Assembly: GCA_948144175.1 (NCBI GenBank) | Contig: CANXME010002010.1 | Location: 1-64,000, forward strand | Reading direction: 5' to 3' | Length of the DNA stretch: 64,000 bases | Source: Closterium sp. NIES-65 | Lineage: Eukaryota > Streptophyta > Zygnematophyceae > Desmidiales > Closteriaceae | Shown here: positions 47,751 to 64,000 of the stretch, piece after piece | Layout of the letters: the number at the start of each line of letters is the position of its first letter | Position numbering within the stretch: the first letter of the stretch is position 1 | Translations under genes and position numbers: made by a program | Notes under the pieces: model-generated | Told to the model about the DNA's origin: nothing | What the model saw: only the letters and a program-made list of their open reading frames with translations | Databases searched by the model: none

Positions 47751-49863
47751 CTAGTCTCCACACCATTGTTTTCACTAGTAGGTGCCTCCTGCACCTTCTC
47801 TCCATCACCACCCTCTGCAGCTGCCTCCTCTCCCTCCTCCCACACACAAGGAGTCAGGTCCAGCTGCATTGTGATCTGCTCCATCTGTTGGGACACGCTT
47901 CCGGCTGCTTCTCCCAGCTCCCATACATCATGCCCTTAACAAACTTCACATCCCTGCTGTCAAACAACATACTTCTGGATGGTTCCCATAGCAGCAATTC
48001 CTTGCTCTCAACAGCCAGCCCCAAATGCACACACCAGATTGCACTTGCCCCTAACTTACTGCGGTAGGACTTGGGGACGTGGGCAACTGCCATGCACCCG
48101 AACACCCTAACCATGTCCACCGGCGGCTTCCTCCTAAGCCACCTCTCCAACGGCACCCACGAGTCATCCCCAACCTTGGTGAGTACCCTGTTCCTAGCGA
48201 CGGTAGCGTGCCGAATAGCATGGGGCCACATCAAGTTGCCCAGCCCAGATTCTATGAGCAGCGCCCTAGCCGTCTCCAGAATTGCCCGGTTCGCTCATTC
48301 TGCTACACCGTTGGACTATGGGGTGTAAGCCGTCGTCAGCCATCTGGATGCCCTGCTTCTTTAGCAAGGCCGTTATCTCAGCTCTAAGGAACTCACCACC
48401 CCGATCTGTCCTAATCCGCTTCACCACACACTCCGCAGCGAATCTTCGCGTAACGTAGAGGATGCGTGGTCCTTTTGCTTCAGCGGATATGCAAACATAA
48501 GCCTACTCCTATCATCTACTATGTTCAGAAAGTACCGCTCCCCCTTGTGCCCCTGAACCGGCAGCGGCCCCACCGAGTCCATGTGGACCAGCTCCAACGA
48601 CTTCTTGCTCCTGCTAGTCATACTATGGAAGGGGAAACGGGTAAACTTTGAGAGCAAACAGATTTCACAATTCTCATAAGGTGGCTGTCCGTTCAGCTTC
48701 AGACCCTTAACGGCTTCATCTTTCTCCATCTGCTTCAACAAGGGCATTGCCACATTGCCCAAACGTCGGTGTGCCGTTGCCCAATCCGTCTCCCCAGATC
48801 TGGCCGACACTTTCATACCAACCCCTCCAACAGCGTTGCAACCCCCCTGGGATGCAGACCCCTCTCCAGCCTGCCCCCCACCATGCCACGCCAACGTCGG
48901 CAGCTGCCACTGGGATCTGTACACGTCCGTGCTCTCGTGCAGATCCCAAAGCACCCGATTGCCCAGCTGCCCCTTGTACGTGTGTGCCCTATCCGTGCTA
49001 GTTCTTACCCCAGCCTTGCCAAGCTTACGGAGGGAGATGAGGTTGGCCTTGAGGTCAGGAACAAGGAGAACGTCGTGCAGCACCACCGGCTTGCCATCCG
49101 CTCCCTTTAACATAGCTCGTCCCGCACCAGCCACCATCAGCGCCTGTTCAGAGGAGGAGCACACCTCGTTGATCGGTGCAGCGCATACGTGGTCCAGCAG
49201 GTCATTGTGCGGCGTCATCGTCCAAGCAGCGCCCGTGTCCAACACCCTATAATCCAGGGGGTGCAGCTCTGCTCCAACCTTGGCAGAGGCGTCTCCTTGC
49301 TTCCCCTGCTCTCCAATATGGAAGAACTGGCCCGTGGTGCTCTCCTTCGCGTAGAGGTCGCGCATCTTGTCCAGTTGCACCGGCTCTCCCTCGCCCAGGC
49401 ACAACGCGGACAGCTCCCTCTCCAGCATCAACGCTGCAACAACGGAGGTCGGGGCGTGCAACTCCTTCAATACGGTCCACGCCTTCGGACTGCACTCAAC
49501 CTCCGGCTACAAGTGCACGTCGTGGTGAGACTGGTTCAGCTCCGAACTCTGCGACATCAAATAGTAGCCAGCTGAGGAGCGCTCGTCCCAATCTTCCTGC
49601 AGCGTGGGGTCACTCGGTCTAGGCTCCTTCCCAATTATTTGTATCAGCAATCTAATCTGACGGAAATAGAGTTGCATCTTCTAGGCCCAATCATCATAAC
49701 CCTCACTGTTAAACTTCTTGACTGTGAAGTTCTTTGGCACCTCCTTGACCAGCGAGCCCTGGTTTGTTCGCGCTCCCCTTGGTGCTGAAACGTCAGAATC
49801 TTGGCTGCCGCTAATATCTTGGGCTGAAGATTCACCAGCTCCTGTTGAGGTGTTGCCCGTCAT
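47751..49863 (-). pseudogene. truncated gag-protease-integrase pseudogene J
   Basis: Minus strand from ATG at 49,863 (MTGNTSTGAGESS). A TAG replaces Trp at 49,681 after EGYDDWA. Gag then joins the protease leader directly (RDLYAKESTTGQFFHIGE): about 480 nt including the CCHC knuckle are missing, as in K. Protease reads LDTGAAWTM. GAG-pre-integrase and part of integrase follow, with a deletion near 48,436 that removes the segment before the second Asp. The region ends in the linker (VETS) at LTR 46,657-47,750. Confidence 0.88.
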
Positions 49864-49894
49864 TGGTACCTATAACCAGGATCACTATAACGCA

Positions 49895-49906
49895 GCTCTG
49901 ATACCA
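49895..49906 (-). promoter_or_regulatory. primer-binding site of unit J (tRNA-iMet)
   Basis: TGGTATCAGAGC on the minus strand, 3 nt from the LTR at 49,910. Confidence 0.88.
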
Positions 49907-49909
49907 GCT

Positions 49910-50971
49910 TGTTGGTTTAGGGGCCTAATAAGCTCAAGCAATTAAGACTCAATCAAGGGTCATTGGGTGCCTGGTACAAGACCAGCCCCTATCCTCGGGT
50001 CCGAGTTTGTAGAGAGAGGAGTCAAGAATGTCTTAGCCAAAATAACAAGAGTACTTTGAACGTCGCGCAGCGTATCATGCAGACCGTGGATCGGATTAAG
50101 CCAAGAATTTCTTATTTCGAAGCTCGCTCCCAAAGCTTTAAAATGAACCAACTTGCCTCGCGAAAAGTTCTGCCATTACGAAGTTATGGCTCGGATAGCG
50201 TTTGCATAGCGTTGGAGTGCTAGCGTACTAGCGTTGACTCGGGTAGCATTCCGCCGTCGCACCGCGTAGAAACGAAATTCCAGGAAGGGATGAATATGCT
50301 TGAATCAAATGGACTATATCCAGGTATAAACAGAGAAGGAATAAATAGTTCTAGCTAGCAAGGACCTTGGGAATAAACCTGGGAACAACCAGGGATGATC
50401 CCAAATAATTCCAAGCAACAGAACCAACCTGGCTGGACAAAACAGTAGGTGGTAGGTTGGTAAACAACCTCTGGTTCTGTTTTTCCAACCTGGGAAAACA
50501 ACAACCAGGTTCAGGTCCAAAAAAACAGAACCTGTTTTATCTTTGCCCAACCAGCCAAATGCTGGTTCCGCTTGTTTCCCCTGGCCCTGTAGCATGCAGA
50601 TACAGACAAACAACATCCAACCTTCACCTAAATTGTACCCCTATAGTGCCTGCCCTGCTAGACTATAGTCAACCGAACAAAACAGTACAATTTCGAATTG
50701 GATAGAACTGAATCGCGCAATCAATTCAACCGAACCGCAAAGCTTCCGTCTTGGGTTCCTTTGCGAGCTCGTCTTTTCTGCTTGTACTGTTCATAGCACG
50801 TACAATGATGTGCCGAAGCGCACAATGCGCGATTACCTTCAAATGCTTCAAGCGAAAATTGCGAAAGCAAACAAACATACGAACATTCCATTCACATCCG
50901 AATGCATTCGCGCATGCATACTCGTACAAACAGACGGCAGGATGTCGTGCAAAGTGAATATGCACCCAACA
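49910..50971 (-). repeat. 5' LTR of unit J (1,062 bp)
   Basis: Plus-strand TGTTGGTTTAGG...ATGCACCCAACA. It has the same length and variants (CTTGTTTCCCC, CAAAAAAACAG) as the LTR at 56,143, and abuts a diverged plus-strand LTR fragment at 50,972. Confidence 0.9.
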
Positions 50972-51364
50972 TGTTTTTATGACCTGAACCTGGTTGTTTT
51001 TCTAGGTTGAAAAAACAGAACCACAGGTTGTTTACCAACCTACCAGCTGCTGCTTTATCCAGCCAGGTTGGATCTGTTGCTTCGAATTATTTGGGATCAA
51101 CCCTGGTTGTTCCGAGGCTGATTCCCAAGGTACTTGCTAGCTAAAACTCTTTTATTCTGAGATATAGTGAAATTGGTTCAAGCGAATTCCTTCGTTGCTG
51201 AAATTTTGTTTCTACGTGGTTCGATGGTGGAATGATATTGAGTCAACGCTAGTACGCTAGCACTACGGTGTTAGTTCAACGCTGTCCGAGCCAGAACTTC
51301 ATGTTGGCAGAACTTTTCGCGAGGCAACTTGGTTCGTCTTAAAGCTCTTAGAGCGAGCTTCGAT
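50972..51364 (+). repeat. diverged LTR fragment L' (393 bp)
   Basis: It begins TGTTTTTATGACCTGAACC, mid-LTR, and runs to GAGCGAGCTTCGATA. It matches 57,205-57,599 and is cut at a short ATA overlap with the transposase sequence at 51,363. Confidence 0.85.
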
Positions 51365-52893
51365 ACAGAGAGGGTTTGCATACCATGCAGGTGGTGAGAT
51401 GATGTCTTAGCAAGATGCAAACCGAGTATGGACCTGGCGATGCCATCAAGAAGCGGCTGCAGCACGGTGATGACGCAACACTGGAAGAGCATCACCTTCT
51501 CCACGGCAAACATTGCAGACGGGGAGATAGGAAGGAGGGCAAGTAGTGTGTGCCCAGCTTTCCCCCATCGCTTGGCCTGGGAGATGTTGGCCAGCGTCAT
51601 CATGAGCGGCCACGCCTTCTTCCGGCCGTTGTTGCTCATGTGCGTCACATCCGAATATAAGATGATCCCCCCCACAACTTCGGACCAACCGAAGTGTTCC
51701 TACAGTGCACGACAAAGCGGCAATGGACAGACGGTTTAGGGCTCAAGATGCTCTTGACAGATCAGTGCAGCGATGGAGGCATGAGGAAGGATTGGGTTTG
51801 GGGTGGCAACGTGGTCTTTCCTTACCTGAGCATCGTTCCACCACGTTACTGTTTCAACGTGGTATAGCGACGGCCGCCTGCGTCAGGGTCCTCAGCAACA
51901 CGCGCCTTGAGCTTGAAGCCGGGCGCGTTGTTGGGATGTCCAAACATTTTAGCGAATGCCTGGTGTACGGTGGCGAAGGCAGGTAAGAGGAGAGGCATGG
52001 TTAGTGGCGGTGAAGGTGGGTGTACGGTTAATACAAGGATAACTACTTACATGCAAACCCTGTGTGCCTCATCATCATTTCATGGCCTTGAATGCAAAGT
52101 CGGCTTACCTGGGCTGAGTTCTGAAAGAGCAAGCGCAGTGGTGGATGACCGTCAATCTCGAAGGTCGCCACCGACCATCCGCGATTGAGCCCTGCCAAAC
52201 GCTCCATCTCGAACCGCTCCAGATCCTTACAGTTCCGGAGCTCCAAGACCACAAGAGGCGCAAGGCCGGGCTCTATGACTAGCTGAAGCAGGCCGTTGAT
52301 GTCAACCTCGGCCATTCGCATTCCGCCATTCACGCACCGAATGAAATGTAGCAGCTTCAACGCGAGTGGATTGAGGGGCGTAGCATTGCTCTATCCAGAG
52401 ATGATTGTTGGCGGCGCGACATGACTCCCTTCGGGCCGGCTCTCATGATGGTCACTCGTGTCAGCCGCAGGAGCTCCTGGTTGTGGTTGATGTTCATCTT
52501 CAGGAGGCCCCTTGTTCACGTCGTTGGGAGTTTCGTCAACGTGAGCTTCAGGCACGCGTGGAGGACCGCTCACACTGACGGCGTTGGATGTGTTAGACGC
52601 TGTAGGTGAACCGGGGGCGGCTGGAGCGTCCGACAGAATGTCGTGGACGAATAGCAGAACGTGAAGACCGGCGGTCGGTGCAGATCGCGTCGGCCTTGCC
52701 ACGGTGGATAGTCCTTGGCAAGGGGTCCGCCGTGACTTATGACCGCCATAAACTTGGGCGTTGGGGAACCATCTGTTGTAGAACTCGCAGACGACACCTG
52801 GTAAAGAGCCCATGTGTTACGGATCCGTTGTAGAGTCGAGAAATCGCCTATGAAGCTACTAGCCGTGATGAAGCGTGTGAACTCATTAAGTAC
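51363..52893 (-). pseudogene. Plavaka-like (CMC) transposase, N-terminal half, duplicate copy
   Basis: Minus-strand exon-like blocks. About 52,813-52,109 starts MGSLPGVVCEFYNRW, has one TAG at about 52,391, then LLHFIRCVNGGMRMAEVD and RGWSVATFEIDGHPPLRLLF, ending CAG/GTAAGC. Block 51,959-51,826 contains AFAKMFGHPNNAPGFKLKAR; its end reads WWNDAQ only after a one-base frame change, so it is frameshifted. Block 51,699 to about 51,384 contains EHFGWSEVVGGIILYSDVTH and KKAWPLMMTLANI, the SDxT...W-x-L-x-L-x-NI signature of Plavaka transposases. The C-terminal half is missing beyond 51,363. It preserves about 620 nt that the copy at 62,700 has lost. Confidence 0.75.
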
Positions 52894-53981: not shown

Positions 53982-56096
53982 CTAGTCTCCACACCATTGT
54001 TTTCACCAGTAGTTGCCTCCTGCACCTGCCTCCATCATCACCCTCTGCAGCTGCCTCCTCTCCCTCCTCCCACACACAAGGAGTCAGGTCCAGCTGCATT
54101 GTGATCTGCTCCATCTGTTGGGACACCCTGGCCTCCGGCTGCTTCTCCCAGCTCCCATACATCATGCCCTTAACAAACTTCACATCCCTGCTGTCAAACA
54201 ACATACTCTTGGATGGTTCCCATAGCAGCCATTCCTTGATCTCAGCAGCCAGCCCCAAATGCACACACCAGATTGCACTTGCCCCCAACTTACTGCGTTA
54301 AAATTTGGGGACGTGGGCAACTGCCATGCAACCGAACACCCTAACCATGTCCACTTGCGGCTTCCTCCTAAGCCACCTCTCCAGCGGCACCCACGAGTCA
54401 TCCCCAACCTTAGTGAGTACCCTGTTCCTAGCGACGGTAACGTGCCGAATAGCATGGGGCCACATCAAGTTGCCCAGCCCAGATTCTATGAGCAGCGCCC
54501 TAGCCGTCTCCAGAATTGCCCGGTTCGCTCATTCTGCTACACCGTTGGACTATGGGGTGTAAGCCGTCGTCAGCCATCTGGATGCCCTGCTTCTTTAGCA
54601 AGGCCGTTATCTCAGCTCAAAGGAACTCACCACCCCGATCTGTTCTAATCCGCTTCACCACACACTCCGCAGCCAATCTTCGCGTAACGTAGAGGATGCG
54701 TGGTCCTTTTGCTTCAGCGGATATGCAAACATAAGCCTATTCCAATCATCTACTATGTTCAGAAAGTACCGCTCCCCCTTGTGCCCCTGAACCGGCAGCG
54801 GCCCCACCAAGTCCATGTGGACCAGCTCCAAGGGCTTCTTGCTCCTGCCAGTCGTACTATTGAAGGGGAAACGGGTAAACTTTGAGAGCAAACAGATTTC
54901 ACAATTCTCATAAGGTGGCTGTCCGTTCAGCTTCAAACCCTTAAGGCTTCATCTTTCTCCAACTGCTTCAACAAGGGCATTGACTTATGCCCCAAACGTC
55001 GGTGTGCCGTTGCCCAATCCGTCTCCCCAGATATGGCCGACACTTTCACACCAACCCCTCCAACGGCGTTGCAATCCCCCTGGGATGCAGACCCCTCTCC
55101 AGCCTGACCCCCACCATGCCACGCCAACGTCGGCAGCTGCCACAGGGATCTGTACACGTCCGTGCTCTCGTGCAGATCCCAAAGCACCCGATTGCCCAGC
55201 TGCCCCTTGTACGTGTGTGCCCTATCCGTGCTAGTGCTTATCTCAGCCTTGCCAAGCTTACGGAGGGAGATGAGGTTGGCCTTTAGGTCAGGAACAAGGA
55301 GAACGTCGTGCAGCACCACCGGCTTGCCATCCGCTCCCTTTAACGTAGCTCGTCCCGCACCAGCCACCATCAGCGCCTGGCTAGAGGAGGAGCACACCTC
55401 GTTGATCGGTGCAGCGCATACGTGGTCCAGCAGGTCATTGCGCGGCGTCATCGTCCAAGCAGCGCCCGTGTCCAACACCCTATAATCCAGGGGGTGCAGC
55501 TCTGCTCGAACCTTGGCAGAGGCGTCTCCTTGCTTCCCCTGCTCTCCAATATGGAAGAACTGGCCCGTGGTGCTCTCCTTCGCGTAGAGGTCGCGCATCT
55601 TGTCCAGTTGCACCGGCTCTCCCTCGCTCAGGCACAACGCGGACAGCTCCCTCTCCAGCATCAACGTTGAAACAACGGAGGTCGGGGCGTGCAGCTCCTT
55701 CAACACGGTCCACGCCTTCTGACTGCACTCAACCTCCGGCTGCAAGTGCACGTCGTGGTGAGACTGGTTCAGCTCCGAACTCTGCGACATCAAATAGTAG
55801 CCAGCTGAGGAGCGCTCGTCCCAATCTTCCTGCAGCGTGGGGTCACTCGGTCTAGGCTCCTCCCCAATTATTTGTATCAGCAATCCAATCTGACGGAAAT
55901 AAAGTTGCATCTTCCAGGCACAATCATCATAACCCTCACTGTTGAACTTCTTGACGGTGAAGTTCTTTAGCACCTCCTTGACCAGCGAGCCCTGGTTTGT
56001 TCGCACTCCCCTTGGTGCTGAAACGTCAGAATCTTGGCTGCCGCTAAGATCTTGGGCTGAAGATTCACCAGCTCCTGTTGAGGTGTTGCCCGTCAT
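53982..56096 (-). pseudogene. truncated gag-protease-integrase pseudogene K
   Basis: Minus strand from ATG at 56,096 (MTGNTSTGAGESS), open for 387 codons. Gag (EGYDDCAWKMQLYF) is joined directly to the protease leader (RDLYAKESTTGQFFHIGE), so the CCHC knuckle is absent. Protease reads LDTGAAWTM. GAG-pre-integrase is broken at 54,951 by loss of one base (CCTTAAGG). The next frame (54,936-54,655) has CEICLLSKFTRFPF and HMDLVGPLP. Integrase is further damaged by the deletion near 54,669 shared with J. Everything beyond the linker is missing. Shared deletions make J and K copies of one parent. Confidence 0.9.
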
Positions 56097-56127
56097 TGCT
56101 ACCTATAACGAGTATCACTATAACGCA

Positions 56128-56139
56128 GCTCTGATACCA
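56128..56139 (-). promoter_or_regulatory. primer-binding site of unit K (tRNA-iMet)
   Basis: TGGTATCAGAGC on the minus strand, 3 nt from the LTR at 56,143. Confidence 0.9.
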
Positions 56140-56142
56140 GCT

Positions 56143-57204
56143 TGTTGGTTTAAGGGCCTAATAAGCTCAAGCAATTAAGACTCAGTCAAGGGTCCTTGGG
56201 TGCCTGGTACAAGACCAGCCCCTATCCTCGGGTCCGAGTTTGCAGAGAGAGGAGTCAAGAATGTCTTAGCCAAAATAACAAGAGTACTTTGAACGTCGCG
56301 CAGCGTATCATGCAGACCGTGGATCGGATTAAGCCAAGAATTTCTTATTTCGAAGATCGCTCCCAAAGCTATAAAATGAACCAAGTTGCCTCGCGAAAAG
56401 TTCTGCCATTACGAAGTTATGGCTCGGATAGCGTTTGCCTAGCCTTGGAGTGCTAGCGTACTAGCGTTGACTCGGGTAGCATTCCGCCGTCGCACCGCGT
56501 AGAAACGAAATTCCAGGAAGGGATGAATATGCTTGAATCAAATTGACTATATCCAGGTATAAACAGAGAAGGAATAAATAGTTCTAGCTAGCAAGGACCT
56601 TGGGAATAAACCTGGGAACAACCAGGGATGATCCCAAATAATTCCAAGCAACAGAACCAACCTGGCTGGACAAATCAGTAGGTGGTAGGTTGGTAAACAA
56701 CCTCTGGTTCTGTTTTTCCAACCTGGGAAAACAACAACCAGGTTCAGGTCCAAAAAAATATAACCTGTTTGATCTTTGCCCAACCAGCCAAATGCTGGTT
56801 CCGCTTGTTTCCCCTGGCCCTGTAGCATGCAGATACAGACAAACAACATCCAACCTTCACCTAAATTGTACCCCTATAGTGCCTGCCCTGCTACACTATA
56901 GTCAACCGAACAAAACAGTACAATTTCGAGTTGGATAGAACTGAATCGCGCAATCAATTGAACCGAACCGCAAAGCTTCCGTCTTGGGTTCCTTTGCGAG
57001 CTCGTCTTTTCTGCTTGTACTGTTCATAGCGCGTACAATGATGTGCCGAAGCGCACAATGCGCGAGTACCTTCAAATGCTTCAAGCAAAAATTGCGAAAG
57101 CAAACAAACACACGAACATTCCATTCACATCCTAATGCATTCGCACATGCATACTCGTACAAACAGACGGCAGGATGTCGTGCAAAGTGAATTTGCACCC
57201 AACA
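56143..57204 (-). repeat. 5' LTR of unit K (1,062 bp)
   Basis: Plus-strand TGTTGGTTTAAGG...TTTGCACCCAACA. It is inserted in the LTR of element L, whose sequence continues at 57,205 with TGTTTTTATGACCCG. Confidence 0.92.
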
Positions 57205-59880: not shown

Positions 59881-60169
59881 CACTACTACATCACAAAAAA
59901 CCTTGGTTTTTGAAGGGGGTTCGAAGGGGGGTACAGTTCAGGTATTTTGGTTGGCGAAGTTCCGAAGCCAAAGCGCGACCAATCACGGAATGAAATCGGA
60001 CCGCGTTTGTTTGTCGAAGTCTGGATCGAATCCGCGACTCCGGTATATTGCCGTTTATTTGAAGGGTGCCAAATTTGTTGTGATTTTGTAATAGGTTTTT
60101 TAAGCTTTGACATCTCTAAAATGTGTCTGCTTGAATATATGCTAGCCATTTTATTACAAGATAAACGCA
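59881..60169. repeat. terminal and subterminal region of the CACTA-type transposon
   Basis: CACTACTACA starts the element. Short repeats of GGGGGTTCGAAGGGGGG-type sequence and an AAAAACC/GGTTTTT inverted pair (about 59,895-59,913) follow within 60 bp. No gene is seen apart from the transposase 3' end at 60,170. Confidence 0.6.
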
Positions 60170-63100
60170 TCACATTGGATACTTATTAAGGAGATAGGTA
60201 CTGTCCAGGTGGAATGCCTTCACCATATGGACGTGGCGGAGCAGCGCTTCAATCAGAATCACGGAGTACGCGTACATTCCTGTCGTCCACTTGAGCCGAA
60301 GGCATCTTGTTGCTGTATCCTCTCCGCTTGCATTCCAATATCTAACGTAATCCAGCTCCTCCCTCTCTCCACATATTTTTGTATGGAACAACAGAAGCAA
60401 CCTTGCATACCACTCCTCTCTCCGACCATACCTTACACCCTCCACTTCAACAGAGTACCATGGCCTCTCAAAATATTCAGGGGTCGCTCAAATGAAGTGA
60501 GAAACTCTTGAGAAGCTGGCGTCGTCTGCTGCAGGGATTGCCAGTGATACATAGGCCTGCATAGCAGTTGATGTTAGTCATGTATGATACGAGGCAGCCA
60601 CATGATGGTTGATTGCATAAACTTGCAACTACTTACTCGAATCTTGGTGACGCATCCTGCATAACGCATAAGCGCATCCTTGAGGGCAGCTTGGGCACGA
60701 GGGTGTTGCTTGGTCCAGTTCCTTGCAAACCAGTTGGTGGAGGTGGGTTCTTGTGGTAACTCCACAGGGAGGAAGTATGACTTCTTGATGAGCGTCCGTG
60801 TGTTGGTCTCAATCGCCTGCCAACATATGCTATTGATATTATTACATTCTGCATTCATATCCATGCAATTCAAGCACTAAACAGATTTACCTGCCGCATG
60901 GCGGTGTCCCGGCCACCAGGATCATCCACCGGCACCACATCCGGAATGCGCCTAGCATGGAACTTCATGATCTGCCCATCTACATTGCGCTTGTTGGACC
61001 GACGGTAGATCCTCTTTACCAACGGTCCGTGCAAGTGCTCGAACATGTTGGTCCTGAATTCAGTCACATGACCCGCGCGACGTATGGAGTCAACGTAGTG
61101 CGACATGAGATGTGTTTTCACAAGGCACCAAGAGGATGGCTGCTTTGGAAACGCAGCCTGCAACTGCTCAACGAGCCTGATGGGAGTGGGAGATGGCAAC
61201 ACATGCAATCACAGAGTCTACTTATTCATATGGTTTTCCTATTCCTGATCCTTTCATACCAAAGTTTAGCACCAAACATCCTCACAAGATTGCCTACTAC
61301 AAGAGCACATTTACAGTAGCCAAGCATTCATCCCATGCACGGGGGTTTACATGCGTGGTATTATTACCGAGAGGTCATCTTCTTCAGCTCCCGGAGGGAC
61401 CGCTCAGTGTGCCCCTGAGGTTGGGAGCACAGGATGTACCAGCCAAGATAGGCACGAACGGCATCCATCTGGGGCTGGCGAAGCAGGCCTGCAAAAACAA
61501 ACACCATGACCTGCAAAGAATGTGGATAGCAGCAAAGGGGAGGGTGAGCACAGATGGTGTGAGGAGTTGGGACAAACAATGGCAGCATGAGCAGACTGCT
61601 TGAGGGTTTAGGCTAGGACAAGCAATAGGGAATGGAGGGTTCATACCTGCATGACGGCCCTGTGCTCATAGGCCGTGACACATGCTCCGGTCTCGAAGTA
61701 GGCGCTCTCCGGCAGGGGCATGTGATTCAGGCGCGTGCGGTCGCGAATGAGAGACAGGCGCCTGCCCATACACATCAGTTCAGCGGTGGCAAAAGGGCAG
61801 AAACATGTCAGTAATAGGACAGAACTTATGGTTTGAGTAAATGTGACGAAGAGCAACGAATCCAATCCCCAAAACACTGACCTGTCCATCTGCTTCACAC
61901 GCCGCTTCTTCATCTTGCGCACGACAGCCACAATGTGGCTCATAATGCCCAGGTCCGCCTGGTGCATGATGTCAGGCATCACCACGAGGTAGGGATTACC
62001 CCACGCGGTCCCTGGGACATCCCACTTCCAGAGCACGCACTGGAAATGGGGATGTGGTGGGGAATGGAGGAGAGATGTACGTGAGAGTGGATAGCTAACC
62101 TAAACCACAAGTGGGGTGAGTTCAATGGGGCAGAGCACATCTGGCAGTTCATGACGGGGTGAGCGAGAGCATAGACTACTCATGGGCCGGGGAAACAGGT
62201 CACTGACCTCAACAGGGTAGGTAGAGTAGGCCTTGCATGGGTCAGCCTGGCTAGTTGTCGTCCCAGCCGCCTCGTTAACGATCCATTGCTGCTGTTCAGG
62301 CGTGCGCGGCGTGTTCCGTGCCTTGACAGCACTCAGATGCTCCTGTTGTAGCACGGGGGTGAGGGATGGGATAGAAAAGGTAAGGGTGGTAGCTATGTGG
62401 GTTCTATCAGGCGACCCACAAACGAGAATGTATTTGAATGCGTGCAGATGGCATGTGACCTCACATTTGCAGCATAGCAGATGCTGCACGGCATCCGCGA
62501 TCCGTGCGAGAGTGTGCAACTGATCTTGCCGCTCTCGGGGTAGTCACACACCCAGGCGTACAGCAGGGGCCGCACGGTTTGCCAATCACCGAAAGGGTCC
62601 CTGAGACGGAACCTGCTGCAAGGAACAGGTAGAGGGGCAACAGAAATTCGGGTTACCGCTTTTAGGGAGGAACGGCGAGGGGCAAAGGGCCATGCTACAT
62701 ACAGAGAGGGTTTGCATACCATGCAGGTAGTGAGATGATGTCTTAGCAAGATGCAAACCGAGTACGGACCTGGCGATGCCATCAAGAAGCGGCTGCAGCA
62801 CGGTGATGATGCAACACTGGAAGAGCATCACCTTCTCCACGGCAGACATTGCAGACGGGGGGATAGGAAGGAGGGCAAGTAGTGCGTGCCCGGCTTTCCC
62901 CCATCGCTTGGCCTGGGAGATGTTGGCCAGCGTCATCATGAGCAGTCACGCCTTCTTCCGGCCGTTGTTGCTCATGTGCGTCACATCCGAATATAAGATG
63001 ATCCCCCCCACAACTTCGGACCAACCGAAGTGTTCCTACAGTGCACGACAAAGCGGCAACGGACACACGGTTTAGGGCTCAAGATGCTCTTGACAGATCA

Positions 63101-63526
63101 GTGTAGCGATGGAGGCATGAGGAAGGATTGGGTTTGGGGTGGCAACGTGGTCTTTCCTTACCTGAGCATCGTGTCAGCCGCAGGAGCTCCTGGTTGTGGT
63201 TGATGTTCATCTTCAGGAGGCCCCTTGTTCACGTCGTTGGGAGTTTCGTCAACGTGAGCTTCAGGCACGCGTGGAGGACCGCTCACACTGACGGCGTTGG
63301 ATGCGCTAGACGCTGTAGGTGAACCGGGGGCGGCTGGAGCGTCCGACAGAATGTCGTGGACGAATAGCAGAGCGTGAAGACCGGCGGTCGGTGCAGATTG
63401 CGTCGGCCTTGCCACGGCGGATAGTCCTTGGCAAGGGGTCCGCCGTGACTTATGACCGCCATAAACTTGGGCGTTGGGGAACCATCTGTTGTAGAACTCG
63501 TAGACGACGCCTGGTAAAGAGCCCAT
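60170..63526 (-). pseudogene. intron-split Plavaka-like transposase gene
   Basis: Nine minus-strand blocks with GT/AG borders: 63,035-62,720; 62,614-62,465; 62,342-62,208; 62,039-61,882; 61,761-61,647; 61,510-61,368; 61,176-60,891; 60,816-60,637; 60,556-60,170. Blocks 2-9 join in phase. Family features in order: ILYSDVTHMSNNGRKKAWPL, LYAWVCDYPESGKISC, VVMPDIMHQADLGIMSHIV, MVFVFAGLLRQPQMDAVRAY, WCLVKTHLMSHYVDSIRRAG with FRTNMFEHLHGPLVK, and a C-terminal LKWTTGMYAYSVILIEALLR followed by HVHMVKAFHLDS. This matches the KTH...HY..IR / E.LH / R..N and RRVHL blocks of Plavaka transposases. Breaks: one TGA in block 9 (after SRVSHFI), no phase-consistent join from block 1 to 2, and the N-terminal deletion. 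Upstream (63,526-63,162) starts MGSLPGVVYEFYNRW. The family is best known from fungi; identification is from memory of motifs. Confidence 0.75.
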
Positions 63527-63606
63527 GTGTTACGGATCCGTTGTAGAGTCGAGAAATCGCCTATGAAGCTACTAGCCGTGATCAAGCGTGTGAACTCATT
63601 AAGTAC

Positions 63607-64000
63607 TGTTGGGTGCAAACTCACATTGCACGACATCCTGCCGTCTCTATGTACGAATATGCGTGTGTGAATGCATTTGCGTGTGAATGGTATGTTCGTG
63701 TGTTTGTTTGCTTTTGCAATTTTCGCTTGAAGCATTTGCAGGTACTCGCACAATCTGCGCTTCGGCACAACATTGTACGCGCTATGAACAGTACAAGCAG
63801 AAAGGACGAGCTCGCAAAGGAACCCAAGATGGAAGCTTTGCGGTTCGGCTTACTTGATTGCGCAAATTCAGTTCTATCCAACTCGAAATTGTACTGTTTT
63901 GTTTGGTTGACTATAGTGTAGCAGGGCAGGCACTATAGGGGTACAATTTAGGTGAAGGTTGGATGTTGTTTGTCTGTATCTGCATGCTACAGGGCCAGGG
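63607..64000 (+). repeat. LTR start of the third repeat copy (runs off the window)
   Basis: TGTTGGGTGCAAACTCAC begins after ATTAAGTAC, the same insertion point and first 40 bases as the LTR at 52,894 apart from single differences (CTCTATGTACGAATATG). The sequence continues to the window edge. Confidence 0.9.

Follow-up and report, generated by a model that had tools for sequence, protein, structure and literature searches.

Is the spliced reading frame near the end of a stretch of Closterium sp. NIES-65 DNA a Plavaka transposase, and if so, did the element come to this alga from fungi or does it belong to the streptophyte lineage? The window, i.e. the whole stretch that was analysed (64,000 nucleotides of contig CANXME010002010.1), had been described in an earlier note, made from the sequence alone, as carrying an intron-rich Plavaka-like transposase that might represent either an undescribed streptophyte lineage or a transfer. 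We conclude that it very probably contains one dead copy from a large family of DNA transposons about 12 kb in length, which belongs to the Plavaka superfamily and resides in a Closterium-like streptophyte alga.

The spliced transposase gene and its introns

The gene is located on the minus strand between positions 63526 and 60170 of the window, exactly the span that had been proposed. Its parts are as follows.

63162..63526, minus strand: exon A remnant, ATG at 63526, N-terminal zinc-finger segment with both CxxC cysteines replaced by Tyr
62770..63035, minus strand: exon B, first putative catalytic Asp at 62987-62985, in-frame TGA at 62948-62946
62465..62615, minus strand: exon C, second putative catalytic Asp at 62545-62543, C(2)C at 62488-62477
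62208..62342, minus strand: exon D
61882..62039, minus strand: exon E, carrying the DIMHQ block
61647..61761, minus strand: exon F
61368..61510, minus strand: exon G, followed by the G-H intron, which has the same codon and phase in all six loci compared
60891..61176, minus strand: exon H, H(3)H at 61112-61098, putative catalytic Glu at 61040-61038
60637..60816, minus strand: exon I
60170..60556, minus strand: exon J, with a premature in-frame TGA at 60490-60488 and ending in the stop at 60172-60170

Exons B to J (63035-60170) are nine consecutive blocks that form a single frame of 607 codons. The eight introns between them, from B-C to I-J, measure 154, 122, 168, 120, 136, 191, 74 and 80 nt, and all have GT..AG borders. 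Seven of them must be removed to maintain the frame, owing to their length or to stops, the exception being the stop-free E-F intron (120 nt). The acceptor of exon C is a NAGNAG site, with the exon starting at either 62615 or 62612. The earlier claim that exon-like blocks keep one reading frame across GT/AG borders thus holds for B to J, but exon A is not in frame with exon B, and two TGA codons interrupt the frame.

Splicing in silico and a Pfam search of the product supported the assignment to Plavaka: PF18759 was recovered with 72.6 bits (cut-off 26.3; E 4.4e-20), and no second family, EnSpm and KDZ included, appeared at E values up to 10. The match covers positions 111-323 of the 325-position profile, the first part of the domain falling in a deleted stretch. 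The six motif blocks named in the earlier note are all found on the minus strand.

The catalytic D and E residues were chosen by order and conservation after the accessible text of PMC12730594. D17, D113, C132/C135, H345/H349 and E369 map to 62987-62985, 62545-62543, 62488-62477, 61112-61098 and 61040-61038, respectively; the window copy therefore has D, D and E as well as the C(2)C and H(3-4)H pairs between the second D and E. Across an alignment of 30 rows, D, D and E are unsubstituted wherever the residue is aligned, several rows being gapped. C(2)C is absent in one fungal row and the second H in two Closterium rows, in one of which (L001) it is missing because the reading ran into an intron. 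The protein would adopt an RNase H fold, act catalytically and bind DNA through its zinc finger. When solved structures were searched by sequence, just weak matches to C2H2-type zinc-finger chains came up, all with E > 0.6, and a single-protein query of viral contigs gave no match.

That the gene has many introns, as had been noted, is borne out by conservation, and in vivo splicing would be expected. Contig C708 of the same genome harbours another copy of the window family. When the window exon borders are projected onto C708 by DNA alignment, GT is found at 8/8 donors and AG at 7/8 acceptors, whereas at the eighth acceptor (B-C) the AG lies 3 nt upstream. Exons B-J of the two copies are 90% identical (1640/1818, three gap columns), compared with 64% for the introns (648/1019, 108 gap columns). 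The exon differences are distributed over codon positions 1, 2 and 3 as 38/24/116 (606 positions each), and the NG86 method yields dN 0.048 and dS 0.329 (dN/dS about 0.15). In C708 these exons are open, without a stop. This pattern indicates that purifying selection acts on the transposase protein.

Intron positions were compared across six loci (the window, C708 and four loci of other Closterium families) by spliced alignment, using the C708 protein as query and the numbering of a 606-codon model. As this query was made by projecting the window borders, the alignment is no independent prediction for C708. All of the loci (6/6) have a phase 2 intron after codon 322. Introns at or adjoining codons 183 and 477 are each shared with two other families, and the one at or adjoining codon 417 has an exact counterpart in one other locus and an ambiguous one in another. 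In contrast, the introns at codons 89, 138, 236 and 274 occur solely in the window family when it is compared with the four others, which would be compatible with gain there as well as with loss elsewhere. Among the four loci of the other families, two show additional predicted introns (437, 461) and two a predicted frameshift; one stops at codon 460.

Two further observations concern gene structure. A related Plavaka locus (C729:733444-734964; query 9-497, 41% identity) reads in a single frame without a stop and therefore seems to be devoid of the introns seen in the other families. Exon J (query 474-605) has at least 32 matches from loci with a 236-aa open frame, e.g. C1642:5462705-5463358, and 31/32 among the matches listed are stop-free. 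At several of these loci exon I is the sole other exon among the matches listed. A likely explanation is a deletion derivative, reduced to the final two exons with the intron between them, that has multiplied.

Lesions of the window copy and the nested copia element

The copy in the window is dead, as the whole protein can no longer be made. Its history involves three further features.

51363..52893, minus strand: second copy of this Plavaka gene, truncated and 97-98% identical in the aligned parts, with the same copia junction
63602..63606, no strand: copia target duplication AGTAC (5 bp), second copy at contig 70366-70370
63607..64000, plus strand: start of a copia element (full length contig 63607-70365) in the 5' leader of the transposon

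An alignment with C708 and with the fragment at 51363-52893 revealed that about 0.6 kb is absent at ~63170 of the window copy. By comparison with C708, this deletion took away the last part of exon A together with an intron and almost the whole exon after it, and broke the frame; it is the reason why exon A is out of frame with exon B. The exon A remnant, which aligns with P0001 and P0002 of Closterium at their N-terminal ends, would now abut the last bases and the donor site of the lost exon. A first splice model, which joined A to B via a GTAAGG donor, suffered from a phase mismatch and was discarded, since the second copy and C708 show a deletion instead. The fragment retains 619 bp (51837-52455) that are lost from the main copy. 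In addition to the TGA codons in exons B and J, both cysteines of the zinc-finger CxxC are changed to Tyr in the window copy, and the fragment has one of the two changes.

The nested copia element has LTRs of about 1.09 kb each, which are 96% identical to each other. Since the fragment shares the copia junction, both Plavaka copies were presumably duplicated after the copia element had landed. The setting among copia elements that the earlier note described is evident: the window (1-64000) is packed with one copia family (~1.09-kb LTRs), many of its members being nested or locally duplicated, e.g. at 49345-50971 and 55578-57204. Two predicted proteins, P0029 and P0031 (Closterium NIES-53, NIES-54), carry PF18759 alongside the copia reverse transcriptase PF07727; they look like annotation that fuses nested transposons, as found in the window.

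Element ends, target duplications and probable mode of transposition

59889..64000, minus strand: in-window part of the Plavaka element, terminus CATCACAAAAAACC at 59889 on the 3' side of the gene, with the copia element nested inside

The other terminus, at contig 78318 (L022:8318), lies beyond the window and matches the end at 59889. The element begins with CATCAC at 59889, ends with GTGATG at contig 78318 and is flanked by TA on both sides, a 2-bp target duplication. It spans 18,430 bp, or about 11,670 bp without the copia element. On the left, homology to copia reaches as far as 59870, leaving 18 bp to the terminus, so that the flank does not restore the original target, a point against this reading.

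End queries that reached ~100 bp past each terminus were searched across the whole genome. For the left end (59889), 40 of 242 candidates were scored, and homology in the 39 others begins at the terminus or no more than 4 bp away in 37 cases and 13 bp outside it in 2; for the right end (78318), 40 of 309 candidates were scored, and in 39/39 others homology breaks off at the terminus or no more than 4 bp from it. Among the scored ends, 21 pairs are in the correct orientation and lie within 40 kb of each other, the window pair being one of them. Eight pairs measure 11,141-12,554 bp, and the remaining ones are longer, up to 34,320 bp. Ten further pairs were read, nine of which have identical 2-bp flanks (CC, CC, TG, CT, TA, CA, CA, CC, CA). 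Two of these, C1652 and C773 (both CC, with identical flanks), probably go back to one event. Two observations count against: C1689 has unequal 2-bp flanks, and C1052 has CATAAA at one end, the other nine copies fitting at both ends. The ends are 93-97% identical, which suggests recent amplification or movement. A second Closterium family, represented by a 12.1-kb element in C2024, has the ends CATCGGAAAAA..TTTTTTCCGATG and duplications (CT, CC, AG) in 3/3 copies for which both ends were available; for a fourth copy (C1738) just one was.

With these features the family can be placed within its superfamily. According to the accessible text of PMC12730594, PlavakaB elements have 5'-CATCA..TGATG-3' ends and a 2- or 3-bp target duplication, and EnSpm elements CAC..GTG ends and a 3-bp duplication. 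In its ends and duplications the window family agrees with PlavakaB. The same text states that Plavaka transposases resemble those of EnSpm and that the group shares CA..TG ends, and an ordinary EnSpm/CACTA, ESTA or KDZ transposon could be misread as Plavaka on such grounds. We consider this very unlikely, since Pfam gives Plavaka alone and the CATCAC ends with 2-bp duplications differ from the EnSpm pattern; among the ten copies only C1652 and C773, with their identical flanks, match over 3 bp. The duplications CC, TG, CT, CA and TA all occur, and that they are not always TA argues against ESTA. An assignment to EnSpm or KDZ would call for the respective domain, and neither was seen in the Pfam search.

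The purifying selection on the protein could also be taken to mean a host gene that was tamed from a transposon and is no longer mobile. Such selection is equally expected in a transposing family, however, and the abundance of copies with exact ends (40 scored out of 242 first-look candidates for one end and 40 out of 309 for the other), the target duplications and the broken copy in the window make domestication highly improbable. The preferred reading therefore remains a mobile family with a dead member in the window. Whole members would encode one transposase of roughly 870-900 aa, judged by predicted relatives, which most likely binds the CATCAC..GTGATG ends. It would then excise the element, insert it elsewhere and leave a 2-bp target duplication, a presumed cut-and-paste route. 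Because such an element moves as DNA, its introns would travel along, and the host would remove them from the transcript.

Beside the transposase gene, other parts of these elements deserve mention. In the 5' part of the window element a 178-bp tandem repeat (L022:1079-2005, contig 71079-72005) occurs in 5.2 copies that are 95% alike, and the C708 copy has related tandem repeats; these repeats may be transposase binding sites. No TET/JBP domain was detected among three ORFs of the element's 5' region at E up to 0.1. In the C2024 element (L025/L026) an ORF downstream of the transposase matches HTH_ABP1_N, a centromere-protein-type DNA-binding domain (23.5 bits, cut-off 22.5), and is a possible accessory gene; copy C2232 has no alignment over this stretch.

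Relatives, phylogeny and comparison with known Plavaka elements

A protein search (database of 5.77 billion; 7996 candidates sharing most words scored) returned 33 matches, 33/33 of which are named Closterium. P0001 and P0002 of Closterium sp. Yama58-4 are 86 and 89% identical over the whole query. At every one of the eight window junctions one or both of these predicted proteins agree, yet neither does so throughout. Together with other Closterium GenBank proteins they represent the same family, with PF18759 precomputed and names that give no description as transposon; gene models of this type are longer than the window's and free of its lesions.

The earlier note had named fungal contamination as an outcome that would overturn its reading. 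Nothing speaks for it beyond the usual host of Plavaka. The contig measures 3.4 Mb, in the window the gene has copia elements as neighbours, the first protein search led to Closterium throughout, and the family occurs on dozens of contigs of a genome of 874 Mb in 2400 contigs. Contamination is therefore scarcely conceivable.

With a profile of seven Closterium proteins, 22 matches were obtained: 12 from Closterium, one from Klebsormidium nitens, seven from basidiomycetes and two without organism label. A query with part of the Klebsormidium protein recovered, apart from that protein, matches from a liverwort, Calypogeia fissa, and a moss, Ceratodon purpureus, only. As these searches need shared exact words, they are no measure of the family's spread. 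The proteins of K. nitens (KFL_005040060, P0038), C. fissa (P0055) and C. purpureus (M758_UG213700, P0056) score above the Plavaka cut-off in 3/3 cases, have the first D and the E aligned, and are 28-31% identical to P0001; in the moss model a gap falls on the second D. P0056 bears a UG locus tag and lies on a 112-Mb contig, which suggests the U sex chromosome.

For the phylogenetic analysis 30 chosen rows were aligned, and after removal of P0054 and P0022 the first tree comprised 28 rows and 747 columns, without outgroup. The fungal side, a small sample, consists of seven basidiomycete proteins plus P0052, which we placed there. Twenty streptophyte rows, those of Closterium together with the Klebsormidium, liverwort and moss sequences, are separated from the eight fungal-type rows by a long branch with 100/100 support; a second tree (25 rows, 578 columns) again separates 17 streptophyte from eight fungal-type rows with 100/100. 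Klebsormidium, liverwort and moss group together, likewise with 100/100. The first tree also hinted at deep Closterium paralogy predating the Klebsormidium/bryophyte split. Since Closterium as a single clade withstood an AU test (p 0.367) and came out on one side, with 54/59 support, under stricter column selection, we make no such claim.

From this perspective, the transfer of the element from a fungus to the alga, which the earlier note had raised, is improbable. It is true that Plavaka is best known from fungi, and that the window element has the ends given for fungal PlavakaB in the accessible text of PMC12730594. Yet fungal and green members fall on opposite sides of the tree, Klebsormidium, moss and liverwort are on the streptophyte side, and P0001 is only 17-22% identical to the eight fungal-type proteins, less than to those three. 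Closterium itself holds families that are just 27-50% identical to P0001. For the sampled fungi, the streptophyte/fungal-type split thus does not support a recent transfer. The alternative offered in the same note, an undescribed streptophyte lineage, accords with the separate branch. Tentatively, and at somewhat less than even odds, we propose that Plavaka has long resided in streptophytes, passed down since the ancestor that Klebsormidium, Closterium and bryophytes share, and is no fungal speciality; one Closterium family may then have gained extra introns in its mobile gene and reached hundreds of copies.

In the Plavaka literature searched, which excludes Repbase and most subscription papers, and as far as its text is accessible, we found no report from a streptophyte; judged by title or abstract, it deals with fungi, Amoebidium and Auxenochlorella. 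The literature found for PF18759 concerns fungi, as judged by titles; no report was found joining Plavaka with Ceratodon, or Closterium with EnSpm; and the word Plavaka is absent from the main text of PMC10407611, which presents six Closterium assemblies (438-975 Mb). The statement that Plavaka is described mainly from fungi needs qualification: fungi are where it is best known, but the accessible texts of PMC12633428 and PMC11244446 already report it from the green alga Auxenochlorella and from Amoebidium, respectively.

Mechanism and superfamily are already known; what is new is the streptophyte branch, absent from the Plavaka literature searched, and the four introns unseen in the four other families compared. 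Branch and introns are the parts that merit a specialist's time. Plavaka turns from a mainly fungal superfamily into one that is spread over streptophyte algae and bryophytes, which opens both its age and the routes of its spread to testing. The Closterium families, which vary in intron number and share some positions, offer a natural series for studying intron gain and loss in genes that move as DNA. With exact ends, target duplications and gene structure at hand, transposase models can be removed from Closterium gene catalogues.

Compared with fungal PlavakaB, as characterized in the accessible text of PMC12730594, the window family is alike in the Plavaka domain, C(2)C, H(3)H, the CATCA..TGATG ends and the 2-bp duplication. 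It differs in its streptophyte host, its position apart from the fungal sequences sampled, its many introns and its length of about 12 kb. The EnSpm-Plavaka of Auxenochlorella, going by the accessible text of PMC12633428, is likewise a Plavaka element of a green alga; this host, however, is not a streptophyte.
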